Positions 28,129-64,000 of a stretch of DNA of 64,000 nt are shown here, one piece after another; within the stretch, counting starts at the first letter, position 1; every line of letters begins with the position of its first letter. The stretch spans positions 14,351,001 through 14,415,000 of the forward strand of contig NC_086259.1 of NCBI RefSeq assembly GCF_021018805.1, in the 5' to 3' direction. Source of the DNA: Prinia subflava. Taxonomy: Eukaryota; Chordata; Aves; Passeriformes; Cisticolidae. The notes under the pieces were generated by a model, which worked only from the letters and a program-made list of their open reading frames with translations, was not told the DNA's origin and did not search any database. Made by a program: the position numbers and the translations under genes.

Positions 28129-38413
<10,285 letters not shown>

Positions 38414-39600: not shown

Positions 39601-41759
39601 GAGGAATGCACCAAGAATTAAGCACAAGAACGTAAGTTGCACTTATTTCGTATCAAACTGCTATTACTTTAAGTCTAAGCTCCTCTGAACAACATAAGGA
39701 CATAAAGGAGTCAGGCATGTATGTCTCTTGAAGCAGGGTGGAGTTCAATTCCTGCTCCTGCCTCTGGCACTGCTGGGCCCTGAGTGGATCTGAAGATGCA
39801 CTGTGCACTCCCTCCTTGGCTGAACGAGCTCAGATAAAAATCTTAATTCAATGTAAAGGATGTGGACTCTGAGCTGGCTGGACTCTAAGGATCTCACAAT
39901 ACCTGTGTTAAATCCATCCATATAGTCACAAATACAGAAGCTCAGCTTTTTAATGGGCTTTAAACTGTAACTCTGACAAGTGCTGCATGCAAACATAACA
40001 CTGCGATTTTGTGCCTCCTCAGATCACCCAGTGTTCTTCACTGCAGTTGGGGAAAAATTTTAAACTCCTGTATTCTCATTATGCAGGAAGGTTGTTTCAA
40101 GAGTAACAAGAAAAAGAAAACGTAATTTTGCAGCTGTTTTTTCCCCAAATGAAAGGAATAAGATTATAGTAAAGGAGCATTTTGTAAGTTCATCTCTGTT
40201 CCAGGTGGTTCACTTTGTAAAAATAAAAGGTAGTGCCTAACCACACCAAACACTTTCCCTGCATCAGGATACCATTTTTTATACCCCTCATTAAGCACGA
40301 AAAAGGTACCAGGGTCAATTCTGGGTACGAAGAAAGGAACACAAAAGCCAGCTTCCTTACTAAGCCTGTGAAAAATTCCTGAATCCAGTTCCAGATTTGC
40401 TGAGAGACTTCTGTATATTCCCATTAGACTGACTGGCCTCTCAGACCAGCTAAGTGAATTAATATAAATATTTAATCTCCCTTACTAATTCAACACTTTA
40501 AAATCCCCATACTATTTTCAAATATCTACACTTAATCTTGCATACTGAATTTTGATTTTACACAAGACATAAACATGAAGCACAGCTATCAAGTCTCTAT
40601 TAGCTTTAAAAATTATAAAACATGTAATTTCTATTATTTTTAGACAGCTCTTGCTTTTACTCTACTGTCTTTTCTAGTATCCTCCACTTCTGCTGTGAAA
40701 ACAAAGCTCATGTTCTTCAGCCTGCCCAGGCTAGGGACATAAATTAACATCCTGTCTTGACACTCGTGATGTTGTGGGCAGCCACAGTCTCCAGAGGGCA
40801 CCAGATACCCAGGAATACCGACATATGGCTCATGCACACTCCCTGCAGGGATCCCGCCTCTCCTTCCCTTTACCACCCGTCAGCTTTTCAAGTCGGAGCA
40901 AATCCATATGGACAAACAGCTGAAGTACACGAGATGATGTAAGTACTTAACACCAGACAGCAGGCAATCAGAACAGAGCAGGTCTTTGGCTTACAGCAAC
41001 TGCAAAAATGTTTTACAATTATTTTAAGTATTTGCAGGGAGAAGACTTTCCAGGTGACCAAAAATGTCTGAACAAATAAAGGAAGGACATAGCTAAACAA
41101 CAAATAAAAATGTGATAAATGGGCAAGGAGGTAACAATAAAATATGTAAGACAGAGGGAAAAAATGGCAGAAGTCCATCTGCAAAGCTCATGCAACTCTG
41201 GTGCTGAGCAGAGGTCTGCAACCTTGATACAAGCACAGGCAGCTCTGAGCAGAGGTGGAGCCCCCATAAAGACCTTCACATTCACTGTTAATATCAGTTG
41301 GTAATAACACCAAGTCACCTGAAAGCAAGCCAACAGGCCAAAATTAGCCAATGTCCTCTATGATTCTTTAGTGGAGTAGTAGGAAGGCACCACTTCTGAC
41401 TTGTAAAGCAGAAAATTTTATGTCCACCAAGGAACAGCCCACTGGCATACATGAAGACTTTGGCATACAGCTCACACTGTCAGGAAGTTTGCCAGCCTAG
41501 GAATGCAGGTGTACAGGGACACGAAGGAAATGCCTGCAGCAGGACTCAGGTTAAAGACACTCACAGTGAGGGGCGAACCCGTGGGAAAGGAATGGACGGA
41601 TTCTTACAGCCGTCCGGTAAAGAAACTCAGACGCCACTACTGCTCCGTGACCCTCTGTCACCTCTCACCCCGATCCATGTCGCGCGGCTATCGGGGGTCA
41701 CACGGCGGGGCACGGCTGCCCCCGCGCGGCGAGATGCCGCACTGCACCGGGGCCGGGGC

Positions 41760-42540
41760 CGCTGCCTCCATCCTGCCTGCCACTGCACCCTGACCCTGAC
41801 ACCTCCATCCCTGCCTGCCACTGCACCGGGACCGAGGCCGCCGCCTCCATCCCTGCCTGCCACTGCACCCCGAACCTGCCACCTCCATCCTGCCTGCCAC
41901 TGCACCCTGACCCTGCCACCTCCATCCCTGCCTGCCACTGCACCCTGACCCTGCCACCTCCATCCCTGCCTGCCACTGCACCCCGACCCTGCCACCTCCA
42001 CCCCTGCCTGCCACTGCATCCTGACCCTGCCACCTCCATCCTGCCTGTTACTGCACCCTGACCCTTCCACCTCCATCCCTGCCTGCCACTGCACCGGGAC
42101 CGAGGCCGCCGCCTCCATCCCTGCCTGCCACTGCACCGGGACCGAGGCCGCCGCCTCCATCCCTGCCTGCCACTGCACCGGGACCGAGGCCGCCACCTCC
42201 ATCCCTGCCTGCCACTGCATCCTGACCCTGCCACCTCCATCCTGCCTGCTACTGCATCCTGACCCTGCCACCTCCATCCCTGCCTGCCACTGCATCCCGA
42301 CCCTGCCACCGCACCCTGACCCTGCTACTGCATCCTGACCCTGCTACCTCCATCCCTGCCTGCCACTGCACCGACCCTGCCACCTCCATCCCTGCCTGCC
42401 ACTGCACCCCGACCCTGCCACCTCACCCCGACCCTGCCACCTCCATCCCTGCCACCTCCATCCCTGCCTGCCACTGCACCCCGACCCTGCCACCTCCATC
42501 CCTGCCTGCCACTGCACCCCGACCCTGCCACCTCCAAGTC
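41760..42540. repeat. C-rich minisatellite with 38-bp and 42-bp unit variants
   Basis: Head-to-tail units read (plus) catccctgcctgccactgca then ccctgaccctgccacctc, 38 bp, with one-base-shorter forms. A second form of 42 bp has ccgggaccgaggccgccgcc in the second half. The two forms are interspersed in small blocks (42-bp units near 41815-41860 and 42075-42200). A decayed tail runs on to about 42655. Strand asymmetry is strong: the plus strand is C-rich and nearly free of G runs. It lies in the CTCF 5' intron. Confidence 0.95.
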
Positions 42541-49900: not shown

Positions 49901-50640
49901 TACTCTTGCTGCACTCAGTGATGAGGGCCAAGCAGTGTTGGATTTCACACCCTTTGAATTTAAGTGCTTCACCTCCAGATCTTCTGTCATTTATTTAGTA
50001 CAAGGCACTCAAATCTGTGTCCTGGCTGCATTTTTTATTTGGCAAGTCTATTTTTAATTGTTTATCAGCTTCAAAGAGCATTACTGATAAGAGGTTTGTT
50101 GGAGCTGTGGATGCTCAGTGATAGTGAGGTTTTTAAAAATCTGGAAATTATCTCTTTTTATTTAACACTCACTCTGCAAAAATCATGAATGCTACATACA
50201 AGTCTTGACCAGGAAAGAGGATGCTCAGAGGATACATGGGGTGTGCTCCACTGCTAAGGACATATTAAGACTGCTGATGCAAGCTGCATCCTTGCCAGGT
50301 TCTGTGCTGTGCAACTCTTGAAAAGATTTCCTGAACTTTACAAACTTGTCAATTAACACAGAAGAGCCTTAAGAGAGAGGGACTTCTTCCTTAGATGACA
50401 CTTGATACAAAATGAACCTCCCACACAGAATATTATCACCTCAGAGGTTTTGTCACACACATAAGAAGACAACAGAACACACTGAATTCAATGGAAGCAT
50501 CTTTTTATCCACTTTGGGTTTCCTGAAATTTTGAATCAAGGGATAGTCTTCTTCCATTTTCCAACCTAATCTTCTGCCTTAGAAATTATTTAATAGTAAA
50601 GAAAGCTGTTTTAAATGAAGATTGTACTCAAACTCTTACA

Positions 50641-50646
50641 AGGGCG
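50641..50646. repeat. 6-bp target-site duplication, left copy (AGGGCG)
   Basis: The hexamer immediately precedes the TGTGGG start of the left LTR and is repeated directly after the right LTR at 55303-55308. Six bases fit alpha/betaretrovirus-like integrases. Confidence 0.93.
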
Positions 50647-50981
50647 TGTGGGCCTGACATTGGTCTGAATTTAGGCTTCAGGCTCTGCTAGTGTCTGTGT
50701 GAAAGGCAGACGAGCAACTTTCTCATGTTAGCCTGAGAAATCTAAAGGAGGAATTCAAACAAACCTTGGGAAGTGAGAAACCATCTGCAGGTGGTGTTTT
50801 TCCAACGTGTTTACTGGAAAGAAATGTTTACTAAAGGGTGTAGACGCTGAATAACCAATCATGTTCTTTGTACCGAACTACTCTATAAAAGTAGAATTTA
50901 GAAGAATAAAGTTTGCTCTCATCTTTACCATCATGGAGAGTCATGTTGTTATTTCTGTGCCGTCCGAAAACCATAGCAACA
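50647..50981 (+). repeat. Left (5') LTR
   Basis: TG...CA boundaries. Visible core signals are CCAAT at 50855-50859, TATAAAAG at 50884-50891 and AATAAA at 50905-50910. The AATAAA comes only 14 bases after the TATA box, so it would lie upstream of or at the start of R. Confidence 0.95.
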
Positions 50982-50983
50982 TC

Positions 50984-50998
50984 TGGTGACCTGACGTT
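50984..50998 (+). promoter_or_regulatory. Retroelement primer-binding site, probably tRNA-Trp-like
   Basis: Two bases after the left LTR the sequence is TGGTGACCTGACGTT. It resembles the complement of the tRNA-Trp 3' end (TGGTGACCCCGACGT), the primer of avian alpharetroviruses, with one base missing and one changed. The tRNA match is from memory; another tRNA is possible. Confidence 0.6.
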
Positions 50999-51769
50999 TC
51001 GAAGAAGTTCAGCGCAGCCAGGACTGATTCATGCAGCAAAGCTTGAAAATTCTACCTGCCTCCTCAGAGAGGTAAGCGAAATATCTCCACGTTTTTTCTA
51101 AAGAATGCTGGTCCTGCTGACCATGTCAATCCTGCCAAAAGACAGCAGGTCGGACGGCACCCAGCACAGCTGGACTTTAATTTCTAGAAAAGACAGCCGG
51201 GCAGAGGTTCCAGAAAAACCTGGGGAACCCCTCTCCTGAGAGAGGACAGCTTGTGCCTTTCCTGACAAGAGCAGCTGGAATTCTTCGCTGCCGACAGCTT
51301 GCCCAGCACTCCCCCGACCTTTTTCGGTTCTGTCTGGCCGAGATCAAAGCGAGCGTCTGTAAGCCTCTCCCGGCCGGCAGAGACGGCGCTTCCTTGGCTT
51401 TTCCTTCTCCTTTCTTCATACCACGGATGGCTGGCAGTGGTTCCTGCGCTATCATCCACTGCGACTAGTCTGTACCGTGACTTTAAAAGATGCTAGCCCG
51501 TCCAAGATACAGCTGGTCAGATTCCGACCCAGAGTGTGACACAACGATCCTTTCCTCGTCGGCGTGGGCCAACATCTGGCCTGCGGACGGGACCGGGATC
51601 GAAAACCTTTGATCCCTCTGTATCCTTCTGTGTGTTCAGGGCGAAAAGTTCACTTTATGAGTGTTTTATGCTTTTAACGTTACCTGTGCTTGTTTTTATG
51701 ATTGCCTGTGTGAGTTTAGGGCTTGTCTTTCTTTGTGTCTCTGTGTTTTAACTTTGTTCTTTCCCTTGT

Positions 51770-52490
51770 GCGGGGGTGGGGGGTGCGGTGAGACAGAGGC
51801 ATGGCAGCACGGATGCGATCTCTCTGCCTTCTCTCTCTCTCTGTCTCTTGCCGTTCCTAGTCCCTCCTTCTCCCTGCAGTGGAGCGGTATCAGACCATTC
51901 TCCCCCCCCACACACACACCTTTTCTGTTTTCCCTATGGGCAGTTCTCTCCCCACACCCATGGTTTCGCGGGCGCGATGGGAGAAGGGAGACCCGTGCCC
52001 TGGAGGGAGGTGCCGTCCCCCGCCTCCCTTTCCAGCTTTCTGGCGGGCGGCAGGCACTCCGGGCCGGCGGCGCCGGCGGCACACGATTTCTCTCTCTCGC
52101 CCTCCCTGTTTTCTCCCTCTCTCCCTCGGGTTTCCTCCCGTCTTGCCTCAGGGCGCTGCGCCTGACGCGGCGGTGGCTGCAACCTCTCTCGTTTTTCCGT
52201 ACTCGGTTTTTCCCCCCCCCCTTCCCCCCAGGGCGGTGAGGGGGGCCACCGGCTCTCCGCTTGAGACAGGCGGCGGCAGGGCGGCGGCGGGCTGAGCTCC
52301 GCCGAGCACCGCTCCGTTGTCCCCTCTCCGTTTCCCCTCCATTTCCTTCCCGCGTGAATTTGCACAGCAAGTCGTCATAGGAACGGAGGAGCGGTCTCCT
52401 CGCTCCTTTTCCCCCTTCCCCCCGCCATGAGCGGCGGGGTTCGCTCCCCCACTCCTTCCCTGCGGGCCAAGCGGCTGACTGCGAATAGGG
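51770..52490 (+). other. GC- and CpG-rich leader segment inside the LTR element
   Basis: This 0.7-kb segment is pyrimidine-rich and then strongly CpG-rich (for example near 52050-52080 and 52240-52320), unlike the AT-rich remainder of the element and the intron. Long open frames on both strands reflect composition and have no family match. It could contain packaging or promoter sequence. Confidence 0.6.
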
Positions 52491-52555
52491 CACGAGGAAC
52501 TTGCCGTTCCTCTAGACAGCGGATAATGCTGTGGGAGTTGCTTCGCTTGAATTTT

Positions 52556-52835
52556 TTTTCCTTTACAGAAAAATGGGGGCCACGTTTGTTTGGATTTCCC
52601 CCAGCTCCGCGGGGCGGCCCTGGGGCCATTGAGCCCCCAAAGCCCCACTCAGGGCAGGGCCAAATAGCTTCGTCGCCTTTGAGGTGAGCAGAAGCTTTTT
52701 CCTTTACAGAAAAATGGGGGCCACGTTTGTTTGGATTTCCCCCAGCTCCGCGGGGCGGCCCTGGGGCCCTTGAGCCCCCAAAGCCCCACTGAGGGAGGGC
52801 CAAATAGCTTCGTCGCCTTTGAGGTGAGCAGAAGC
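52556..52835 (+). repeat. 141-bp tandem duplication inside the LTR element
   Basis: Two adjacent copies (52556-52696 and 52697-about 52835), with the shared string acagaaaaatgggggccacg at 52565 and 52706. They differ by a few bases and a small deletion. Each ends in gaggtgagcagaagc, which contains a donor-like GGTGAG. Confidence 0.92.
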
Positions 52836-54482
52836 TTTTCCTTTTAGAGGGACAGTTGATTTTTGTTTGGGTTTTTTCCCTCCCCCCCTCCCTCAAAACA
52901 TTTCTTCTCGAGGCGTCTCTGTGAACAGAATTGGAGCCTTAAATGCCTGTTCATAATACAAGAAAAATGACAAGAAATACAAAAAACAAATAAGCAACCT
53001 TTGTTGCCTTTCGCAGATAACACAAGTATTATTAATAATTCTACAGTATAACCATCAGTTATGAGTTTTAAGTGTTATCTCAGTTTTTAAGATATTTGAT
53101 GTGAATTCACAGATATGATAAAGTTATTACAGTTCTACAGCCGGCTGCTGCTACTGCTGCTGCTTCTGCTTCTTCTTCTCATGTACTTTGCTATTTGTCT
53201 ATAATTGCCTGTAAGACACGTGTCACCCAAGAATTTTTTCTTGTTTTCTAGCTGTCTATGCTAGCTTTGCATTCATGATTTTCTAAATATTTTCAGATTT
53301 CCAGACAAGGTTATCTGAGTTTGTAAGAATGCCTCCTCTGTCCTGACGGTTTGGGATGCAGTTCCAATCCTGGTCACAGACCATCTCAAGAGCCTGCTGA
53401 GCTCAGAGCATCTCTACCCTGACAAATTTAGGAGGTGTCAATTATTATATTAGTTTCTTATTATAAGATTTTTAAGAAGTTTGTTTTTAAAATTGGTGTA
53501 AGGAATTCCTCTGCAGTTAGAGCTGGGCACTGGCCATGCCTTGGCTCTCTCTGGATGGGAATTGCCTGTTTGCCCAGATTTTTAACAAAAAATTGCATAT
53601 GAGTTATTTGACTCAACAATTTGGCCTTTAAATATAATAGCTGAATTGATCTTTGAGGTGAACCTGGAATTCCTGCCCGGGAAGGATGAACAGGATCTCA
53701 CTGGTAAAGAAGCACTTCAGCTTTTGCAGTTTCTGGGCTGATCAAAATTATTATTAAAAAGATAACTTGCAACAATGTAACATTTATGTTATGAACCTGA
53801 AGAAAAAGTAATTCTGAAACCTGGATGTTGAATTTAGACAATGGAGCCTGACAAGTTTGTTAACTTAAGGAGAAGATGTGCCTGTGTTTTATCATTAGCA
53901 GGTTCAGCAGTCGTGTTACCCATCACCTCTGAGGAGTGAAAAGGGACATTGCATAGCCTTAGTGGCTGTCACATAGACTGCAAAGATGACCATGTGGTTG
54001 GAAGTTATGGAGACAACAGAAGTCCTGTGTCAGCAGCATGGTCCTGTTTTCATCGATCATCCTTGAGTCACTCCCTGCTCCAGGCTTCAAGAAGACATCC
54101 AGTGATGCTAAGGATCAACATCTTGTCTCAATGGACTTTTTCTTTTCATGTGTTTTAATTTTATAGTAGATGTTGTTTCATTTAAGTTTCCTACATAGAT
54201 GTAGTTGTATTTTAGGTAATATTTCACGTGCCTTCGGTGTATGTTTTGTAGTTATTAAGGGCTGTTATTTCACTTTGTGGTTTTTGCCTTTCTGGTCATT
54301 GGGATCATGTAGATTTTTGGAGTCAGATATCTTTTTATTGATATTTTTATTAATTTTATTATTCTTTTTTTCTTTCTAGGTGACATCCTACAGGTATCAT
54401 GGGCCAATTGAGTGACCAGTGGTCCAGTCCTGCACATCCTGCAATGGGTCTTTGCCCTTTCAAACATCGCATGCATTTTTGC

Positions 54483-54486
<4 letters not shown>

Positions 54487-54529
<43 letters not shown>
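54487..54529 (+). repeat. Internal poly(A) tract of about 43 bases in the LTR element
   Basis: An uninterrupted run of A follows gcatgcatttttgcattt and is followed by ggtcaactcagg. No AATAAA stands just upstream. The tract is about 430 bp before the polypurine tract, an unusual place for such a long run. Confidence 0.9.
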
Positions 54530-54531
<2 letters not shown>

Positions 54532-54955
54532 TCAACTCAGGTTGTCCAAATAATTGGAAAATTAAATCAGTTTGCGGTTGCAGGTGTAATGCAAGGACCA
54601 CTGTCCTTTGCTAAAAGGCAGAAAAAGCCCTTGTTATCTGAAAGGATGATTCCTAGAGTGATGAATCTTGACAAATTAGACTGCCATTTTTGAGCAGGCT
54701 AATGATGGTTTGTTTTTTTCTGTATTAGAATTAGTAAATAGCTAAGCTTGACGCTGGTGCATGGACATGGTTATGAAGGGTCAACACCAAATGCCACAGA
54801 ACTTCCCTGACCATTTAAGTTGGTGCCCAATGAAAGTTCTGTTTAGTAATTGGTTGATTACTAATGGGACTTCTGGTGTCATGTTTGTCTTTTTTTCTCT
54901 TGCAAGGGCCCTGCAGGAGAGGACACAGACACAGACGCCGCCCTCAGCAAAAACT

Positions 54956-54967
54956 AAAAGGGGGAGA
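54956..54967 (+). promoter_or_regulatory. Polypurine tract of the LTR element
   Basis: AAAAGGGGGAGA directly abuts the TG of the right LTR, the standard primer for plus-strand DNA synthesis in LTR retroelements. Confidence 0.9.
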
Positions 54968-55302
54968 TGTGGGCCTGACATTGGTCTGAATTTAGGCTTC
55001 AGGCTCTGCTACTGTCTGTGTGAAAGGCAGACGAGCAACTTTCTCATGTTAGCCTGAGAAATCTAAAGGAGGAATTCAAACAAACCTTGGGAAGTGAGAA
55101 ACCATCTGCAGGTGGTGTTTTTCCAACGTGTTTACTGGAAAGAAATGTTTACTAAAGGGTGTAGACGCTGAATAACCAATCATGTTCTTTGTACCGAACT
55201 ACTCTATAAAAGTAGAATTTAGAAGAATAAAGTTTGCTCTCATCTTTACCATCATGGAGAGTCATGTTGTTATTTCTGTGCCGTCCGAAAACCATAGCAA
55301 CA
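54968..55302 (+). repeat. Right (3') LTR
   Basis: The 335 bases are aligned one-to-one with the left LTR at an offset of 4321, with a single mismatch (55012). AATAAA is at 55226-55231. It is followed by the AGGGCG duplication at 55303-55308. Confidence 0.95.
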
Positions 55303-55308
55303 AGGGCG
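55303..55308. repeat. 6-bp target-site duplication, right copy (AGGGCG)
   Basis: Perfect copy of the hexamer at 50641-50646, marking the pre-insertion site. Confidence 0.93.
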
Positions 55309-63399: not shown

Positions 63400-64000
63400 G
63401 AGGAATAATGCCGTCCTTTGCCACGAGATTTCGGGCTCTGTCCCTGGGCAAGCGCCCGGCTGCGGAGGCCCGGGAGGCTCCCGGGGAGATGTCCGCGAGT
63501 CGGGCAGCCGGGCCAGGTCCCAGCAAGTGACACAGCTGGTCGGCAGCTGGTGGCAGCCCAGGTGCTCCCGATCGAAGCCTGAAGCCCCGTGGGGACCCCG
63601 GGCCCGAAGTGGGGTGGAGGGGACGGGACGGGGGAGGGGGGATGGACACAGAACGGCGGGGCCGCCGCTCTCCGGGAGCGGCGCGGGGGGTGCGGGGGGG
63701 CTGCCGGCCGGTCACCGCGGCGAGAGCGGGCGCCCCCCAGCCGTGCCCGCCCCGGTGCTGCTGCATGGCGCTGCTCAGCCTGCCTTGCAGAGGGAGCTCG
63801 AGTCCCGCTCTGCGCCTCGCAGCGCCTCTCACTCCGCCGCACACGCCAGCGCAGCGAGGCGGCGGCCGGCGGGAGCGGGACACGCAGCCGTCCCCGCGGG
63901 CAGCGCCCGGCCACACACCGCGGCAGGACACGGGCGGCGGGCCGAGAGCACCGGGCGAGCCCCGCGGAGGTGCGAGAAGTGGGGGGGGGGAGCGGAGACG
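63400..64000 (-). promoter_or_regulatory. CTCF: CpG island, probable CTCF promoter and first untranslated exon
   Basis: Composition changes abruptly from AT-rich intron to very GC- and CpG-rich DNA from about 63430 to the window end, with G-runs and no TATA box, as at housekeeping promoters. Its position upstream of CTCF on the minus strand makes it the likely transcription start. A possible donor (GTGAGA on the minus strand, revcomp near 63824-63829) could end the first exon, but that is a guess. Long open frames here are compositional. Confidence 0.6.

Follow-up and report, generated by a model that had tools for sequence, protein, structure and literature searches.

The 64,000-nucleotide stretch of the Prinia subflava genome analysed here (the window) contains, at positions 50647 to 55302, a long terminal repeat (LTR) element. 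We consider it probable that this element is a recent copy from a class II LTR family that is non-autonomous and is moved by an autonomous class II endogenous retrovirus (ERV) of the same genome. The element has the complete structure expected of its kind, it belongs to a multi-copy family in which LTR pairs are mostly identical, its interior has no recognisable gene, and one provirus elsewhere in the genome is a hybrid with a helper-type 5' LTR. The parts of the window copy are as follows (CpG o/e, observed over expected CpG).

50641-50646, + strand: left target-site duplication AGGGCG, identical to 55303-55308
50647-50981, + strand: 5' LTR, 335 bp, TG...CA
50982-51770, + strand: leader, GC 0.51, CpG o/e 0.69
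50984-51001, + strand: primer binding site (PBS) TGGTGACCTGACGTTTCG, presumably tRNA-Trp-like
51072-51073, + strand: putative splice donor GT in AGAGAG/GTAAGC, motif in 17 of 17 copies compared
51838-52260, + strand: variable pyrimidine/GC-rich segment, which has diverged in the window copy and is longer there
52555-52849, + strand: tandem pair of units, each about 141 bp, with neither gain nor loss of a unit in 16 other copies
52861-54486, + strand: AT-rich part, GC 0.38, CpG o/e 0.21
54487-54529, + strand: A run, 43 A (longest interior A run in 16 other copies, 27-56)
54890-54906, + strand: putative splice acceptor tract TTTTTTTCTCTTGCAAG, exact in 13 of 17 copies
54956-54967, + strand: polypurine tract (PPT) AAAAGGGGGAGA, identical in 17 of 17 copies compared, adjoining the 3' LTR
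54968-55302, + strand: 3' LTR, 335 bp, 1 mismatch to the 5' LTR
55303-55308, + strand: right target-site duplication AGGGCG

Paired TG...CA LTRs, a PBS, a PPT and a target-site duplication, the marks of an LTR retrotransposon or ERV, are all present. The first-pass annotation of this DNA had described intact 335-bp LTRs, the duplication, PBS and PPT and a one-base difference between the LTRs, and each of these was re-found in the same place; the single mismatch is at LTR position 45 (G/C). By eye, the 5' LTR has a TATA box (TATAAAA, 50884-50890) and an AATAAA (50905-50910), placed as an R region would require, and transcription from the LTR is presumed. The PBS starts with TCTGGTGACC directly 3' of the 5' LTR and resembles the Trp PBS of alpharetroviruses; the primer would presumably be tRNA-Trp.

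A Pfam scan of 48 stop-to-stop frames of at least 45 aa, on both strands of the window copy, returned six weak matches, none of them retroviral; the best had E=0.0033, with a chance expectation of 0.16 across 48 queries, and class II pol was absent from these frames. When 140 open-frame pieces of at least 60 aa from class II ERVs of the host were compared with the element by tblastn, the best E was 0.005, which is unconvincing, and the control worked. These queries came from 19 pieces of 17 class II ERV loci in the same genome and covered the leader, the gag start, some 3' ends and some flank, while ERV middle and env regions were compared via Pfam only. On the Pfam frames and tblastn together we reject gag/pol relics in the interior, in line with the original impression that no retroviral gene is detectable there and that the element is non-autonomous. 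Short frames of at least 50 aa vary in length among copies, and two are present in all 17 copies compared, MLFHL... (57-81 aa) and MDMVM... (64-69 aa counted inside the interior). In the window as a whole, Rfam (gathering thresholds) matched nothing and ARAGORN found no tRNA.

Searching the same genome with the LTR and with interior pieces, as had been proposed from the window alone, revealed a multi-copy family. The LTR query gave 1,313 candidate places, the leader query 235 and the 3' interior query 249; these are first-look places and not verified copies, and 40 were scored per query, for the LTR the best 40. All 40 scored LTR matches lay at 99-100%; they belong to 21 complete elements and to 2 solo LTRs, one with an exact duplication (CCACAG) and the other with a duplication one base off. 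We examined 31 elements, 21 picked via LTR similarity, a set biased toward the window LTR, and 10 via leader similarity. The 6-bp duplication is exact in 27 of the 31, the exceptions being L016, L019, the copy at C1:95.97 Mb and L072/L073. A target-site duplication of 6 bp is a class II mark; from this, and from the hybrid with a class II LTR described below, we infer that the family is class II (ERVK-like).

Across 16 other aligned copies, the interiors are 95.7-97.5% identical to that of the window copy, and 97.5-98.6% identical outside 51838-52260. Pairwise, the interiors of the 17 copies differ at 12-163 positions, suggesting that several lineages amplified in parallel. The longer, diverged form of segment 51838-52260 seen in the window copy is absent from the 16 others. 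The PBS varies as well: 13 of the 17 copies carry TGGTGACCTGACG, one has TGGTGACCCCGACG and three have other forms. Two additional copies carry CCCCGACG, which is presumably nearer the alpharetroviral Trp PBS. At C37:5600651, C38:4686391 and L012, TGGTGACCCCGACG stands in place of TGGTGACCTGACG, as though the site might have been rewritten from the primer tRNA.

Among the 30 elements with like LTRs, the two LTRs are identical in 22, differ at one position in seven and at two in one, where the changes are adjacent and near the LTR 3' end. The LTR-picked elements (n=21) comprise 15 identical pairs and 6 with one difference; the leader-picked elements (n=10) comprise 7 identical pairs, one pair with one difference, one with two, and the hybrid. 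Leader-picked members have LTRs up to 12 substitutions away from the window LTR, their own two LTRs being nonetheless identical. That pairs are mostly identical although LTRs and interiors vary between copies indicates that the family moved very recently. At the flycatcher rate of 2.3e-9 per site (from passages of PMC10542752), the window copy is approximately 0.65 My old (95% Poisson limits 0.016-3.6 My), and the mean age of the 30 like pairs is approximately 0.19 My (9 differences in 10,050 positions; our own arithmetic). The window copy is not among the youngest of the family. The first-pass annotation had called the element recently mobile and had placed its age under a few million years, and both statements agree with these figures. 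Counting the window element, 14 LTR places in 8 elements are identical to the window 5' LTR. LTR-identical copies have the same kind of interior, domains having been sought in the window copy only, which suggests that the interior was already gene-less when it moved.

The link to an autonomous virus comes from a provirus on C53 (C53:86301532-86305861; L074, L075, L077), known from the assembly and read at its two ends, in which two unlike LTRs lie within one 6-bp duplication, CTTCTC, outside both ends. The 5' LTR is identical at 325 of 326 positions to the LTR of an autonomous ERV group, group B, and is joined at the PBS to the family leader (98.2% window-type over 788). The 3' LTR is of the window type, with 9 differences in 322, and ends GCAACA. 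The 3' junction follows the family interior until the equivalent of window position 54854 and then passes, at an ATTGGT microhomology, to LTR base 13; the PPT and LTR bases 1-12 were lost there. Given the loss of the PPT, annealing of helper plus-strand strong-stop DNA at the shared PBS would account for both junctions. The hybrid is best read as the product of an intermolecular plus-strand transfer in a particle that would have held both RNAs, and it points to group B as the likely helper. With a 5' LTR that belongs to an autonomous class II ERV, this one provirus supports the suggestion that the element parasitises another virus. A group B LTR end was present at only one of 74 junction-pattern matches, the C53 hybrid itself, which argues that such events are rare or rarely kept.

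Autonomous candidates are plentiful. A genome search with the RVT_thumb profile (PF06817) gave 1,751 candidates, and among the 150 scored there are many open frames of more than 900 aa, with recurring pol frames of 958, 933 and 916 aa; these long-frame loci are evidence of recent autonomous ERV activity. Within the same 150, class II pol loci occur on C36-C51, C7, C53 and others and form several groups by frame length. Many such loci are on the small contigs C36-C46, which may belong to the W chromosome. Seventeen pol loci were sampled, as the ends of two proviruses and the 5' pieces of 15 further loci. Groups B (L039, L047, L055) and C (L049, L052, L053) have a common TGGTGACC PBS. The group B provirus at C5:3.05 Mb has LTRs identical across 326 bp, a 6-bp duplication (GTTAGT) and a 933-aa open pol frame; its LTR/PBS junction, ACA|TCTGGTGACC, is the same as in the window family, and GAGA precedes TGT at its 3' LTR. 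We regard group B as the likely usual helper, whose particles would package family RNA.

The following points weigh against this assignment. The helper link depends on one hybrid, 1 in 74 junction matches, read at two ends. Moreover, the window LTR is, by local alignment, slightly nearer group C (scores 78, 91 and 86; shuffle means 58-61, maxima 86-89.5) than group B (67 and 67; shuffle means 55, maxima 73 and 86.5), with neither convincing, so the usual helper could be another group. Kinship with the LTR of group A (PBS CCTGGCGAACC, 533-bp LTR) was ruled out, at a score of 55 against a shuffle mean of 52.

A full-length partner sharing both LTR and PBS had been envisaged in the first-pass annotation. 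No such partner, of the ETn/MusD type, was found in the 17 sampled pol loci, in 7 of which the LTR and PBS were located (the pieces of the other 10 may stop short of the LTR), and searches of these pieces for the window-type LTR or leader gave only short chance matches; the group B candidate shares the PBS neighbourhood only. The helper might thus be an ERV that does share the window LTR and is missing from the assembly, rare or unsampled, with group B as an occasional partner. We regard this as a serious possibility, if one we would not bet on, in view of the sampling (150 of 1,751 pol candidates scored, 17 sampled, LTR located in 7). Against it, a pattern that combined the LTR end with the PBS, and in which two positions were chosen to avoid the family leader, had 15 matches, 14 of which are family copies with indels and the other, C1:81235598, a chance site with no LTR; as coded, the pattern would also miss the group B leader and LTRs with other last six bases. 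The candidate counts for leader and 3' end (235 and 249) are also close, so that neither part seems common to a second large family.

Under the mechanism that we favour, the mover is an autonomous class II ERV resident in this genome, and the element's LTR would make an RNA with PBS, PPT and R region around an interior without recognisable genes. This RNA would be packaged in particles of the ERV, primed at the tRNA-Trp-like PBS and reverse transcribed, and the helper integrase would integrate the DNA with a 6-bp duplication. DNA lacking the PPT would have no normal means of starting its own plus strand; co-packaged group B strong-stop DNA would then complete it at the shared PBS. A more elaborate version holds that the ERV which moves the gene-less element has LTRs unlike the element's own, a shared PBS neighbourhood being the main tie between them; that PPT-less copies are completed with a helper LTR through the shared PBS to give heterologous-LTR proviruses; and that a captured host transcript makes up part of the interior. 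As a whole, we think this rather unlikely.

The host capture can also be weighed for itself. The 3,986-bp interior of the window copy falls into three composition classes: the leader and CpG-rich part (50982-52500, CpG o/e 0.69-0.77), the tandem pair of about 141 bp, and the AT-rich part followed by the 43-A run. The stretch 52861-54529 could be a polyadenylated host transcript, with the A run marking the switch back to viral RNA. Its AT-rich part is nearer in CpG and GC to the flanking host DNA (CpG o/e 0.10-0.12; GC 0.40) than to the leader, and all 17 copies have an A run of 27-56. However, AATAAA and ATTAAA are absent, by reading, from the approximately 60 bases 5' of the run, and the last 438 bp of the interior are likewise CpG-low (0.21); capture is a tentative proposal that we lean against. 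The tandem units are edged by TTTCCTTTACAG and GAG/GTGAGC and may resemble exons with splice sites at both sides. The host flank (50329-50351) and the interior (53849-53871) share a 23-nt inverted match of 87%, probably by chance.

An origin of the C53 hybrid through an assembly join or subsequent conversion, and not through reverse transcription, appears improbable. It is a single case with two ends read, but one 6-bp duplication flanks the whole, the breakpoints fit retroviral signals (PBS and microhomology), the span fits the family interior, and a conversion tract would have had to stop precisely where the LTR begins. Least of all do we credit a decayed autonomous ERV whose interior is mutated gag, pol and env: the GC-rich leader part does have a composition like that at the 5' ends of class II ERVs in the host, and the MLFHL and MDMVM frames occur in all 17 copies compared, but the negative domain result on the window copy, the negative tblastn result and the common kind of interior in LTR-identical copies leave this idea mostly refuted.

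By analogy, the family appears to work like mouse ETn or VL30, a known kind of parasite, here with an unusual natural recombinant. ETn and MusD share LTR and leader; the window family has no same-LTR or same-leader partner in our small sample and is linked to its candidate helper by one hybrid provirus. ART-CH of chicken is likewise an avian non-coding LTR element. ETn resembles the window family in having LTRs without coding capacity, and a class II ERV, MusD, mobilises it in trans, as is probable for the window family; the passages of PMC6466679 concerned give, in one count, approximately 240 ETn, 100 MusD and 550 solitary LTRs, and mostly intronic mutagenic insertions. Unlike the window family, ETn has traces of retroviral homology, through which MusD, its likely progenitor, was recognised. 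VL30 is non-coding, 4-6 kb long and has intact replication signals; passages of PMC4859993 and PMC6466679 describe identical LTRs in 42 of 86 full-length copies, 237 solo LTRs, exceeding full copies, and co-packaging with MLV. The window family is like VL30 in its intact signals, and the one hybrid would imply co-packaging here. It is unlike VL30, a class I element that retains broken gag/pol, in its 6-bp duplication, Trp-like PBS and lack of recognisable gag/pol. Recent activity and many LTR places are shared with passerine ERVK elements, for which passages of PMC11009239 and PMC10542752 report recent activity and many solo LTRs; a gene-less family or helper relation is not described in those passages, and the term 'non-autonomous' is in neither text. 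If our reading is correct, this gene-less and recently mobile family is a bird counterpart of ETn and VL30 whose candidate helper resides in the same genome, and the natural recombinant records family and helper in one particle.

The element lies near CTCF, for which the following frame gives the context outside the element.

37496-38413, - strand: stop-to-stop frame with the first coding exon of CTCF (phmmer)

The match is to the N-terminal portion of CTCF (E=3.7e-151 to PDB 7w1m_H, Transcriptional repressor CTCF), with the start codon near 38317 on the minus strand. Of the 500-bp bins from 38001 to 64000, just two are CpG-island-like, 52001-52500 inside the element (GC 0.68, CpG o/e 0.86) and 63501-64000 at the window end; bin 41501-42000 narrowly fails. 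The element thus lies antisense to CTCF, with its start codon approximately 12 kb downstream of the insertion in the sense of that gene. The first-pass annotation had put it in the first intron of CTCF: the upstream, antisense position is confirmed, and the first intron itself is likely. The insertion puts a new LTR pair and the CpG-rich stretch 52001-52500 ahead of the CTCF coding sequence, probably within intron 1, and might alter this regulator. A GC-rich stretch at 41627-42343, in the interval that separates the element from the CTCF coding exon, yields long repetitive frames.

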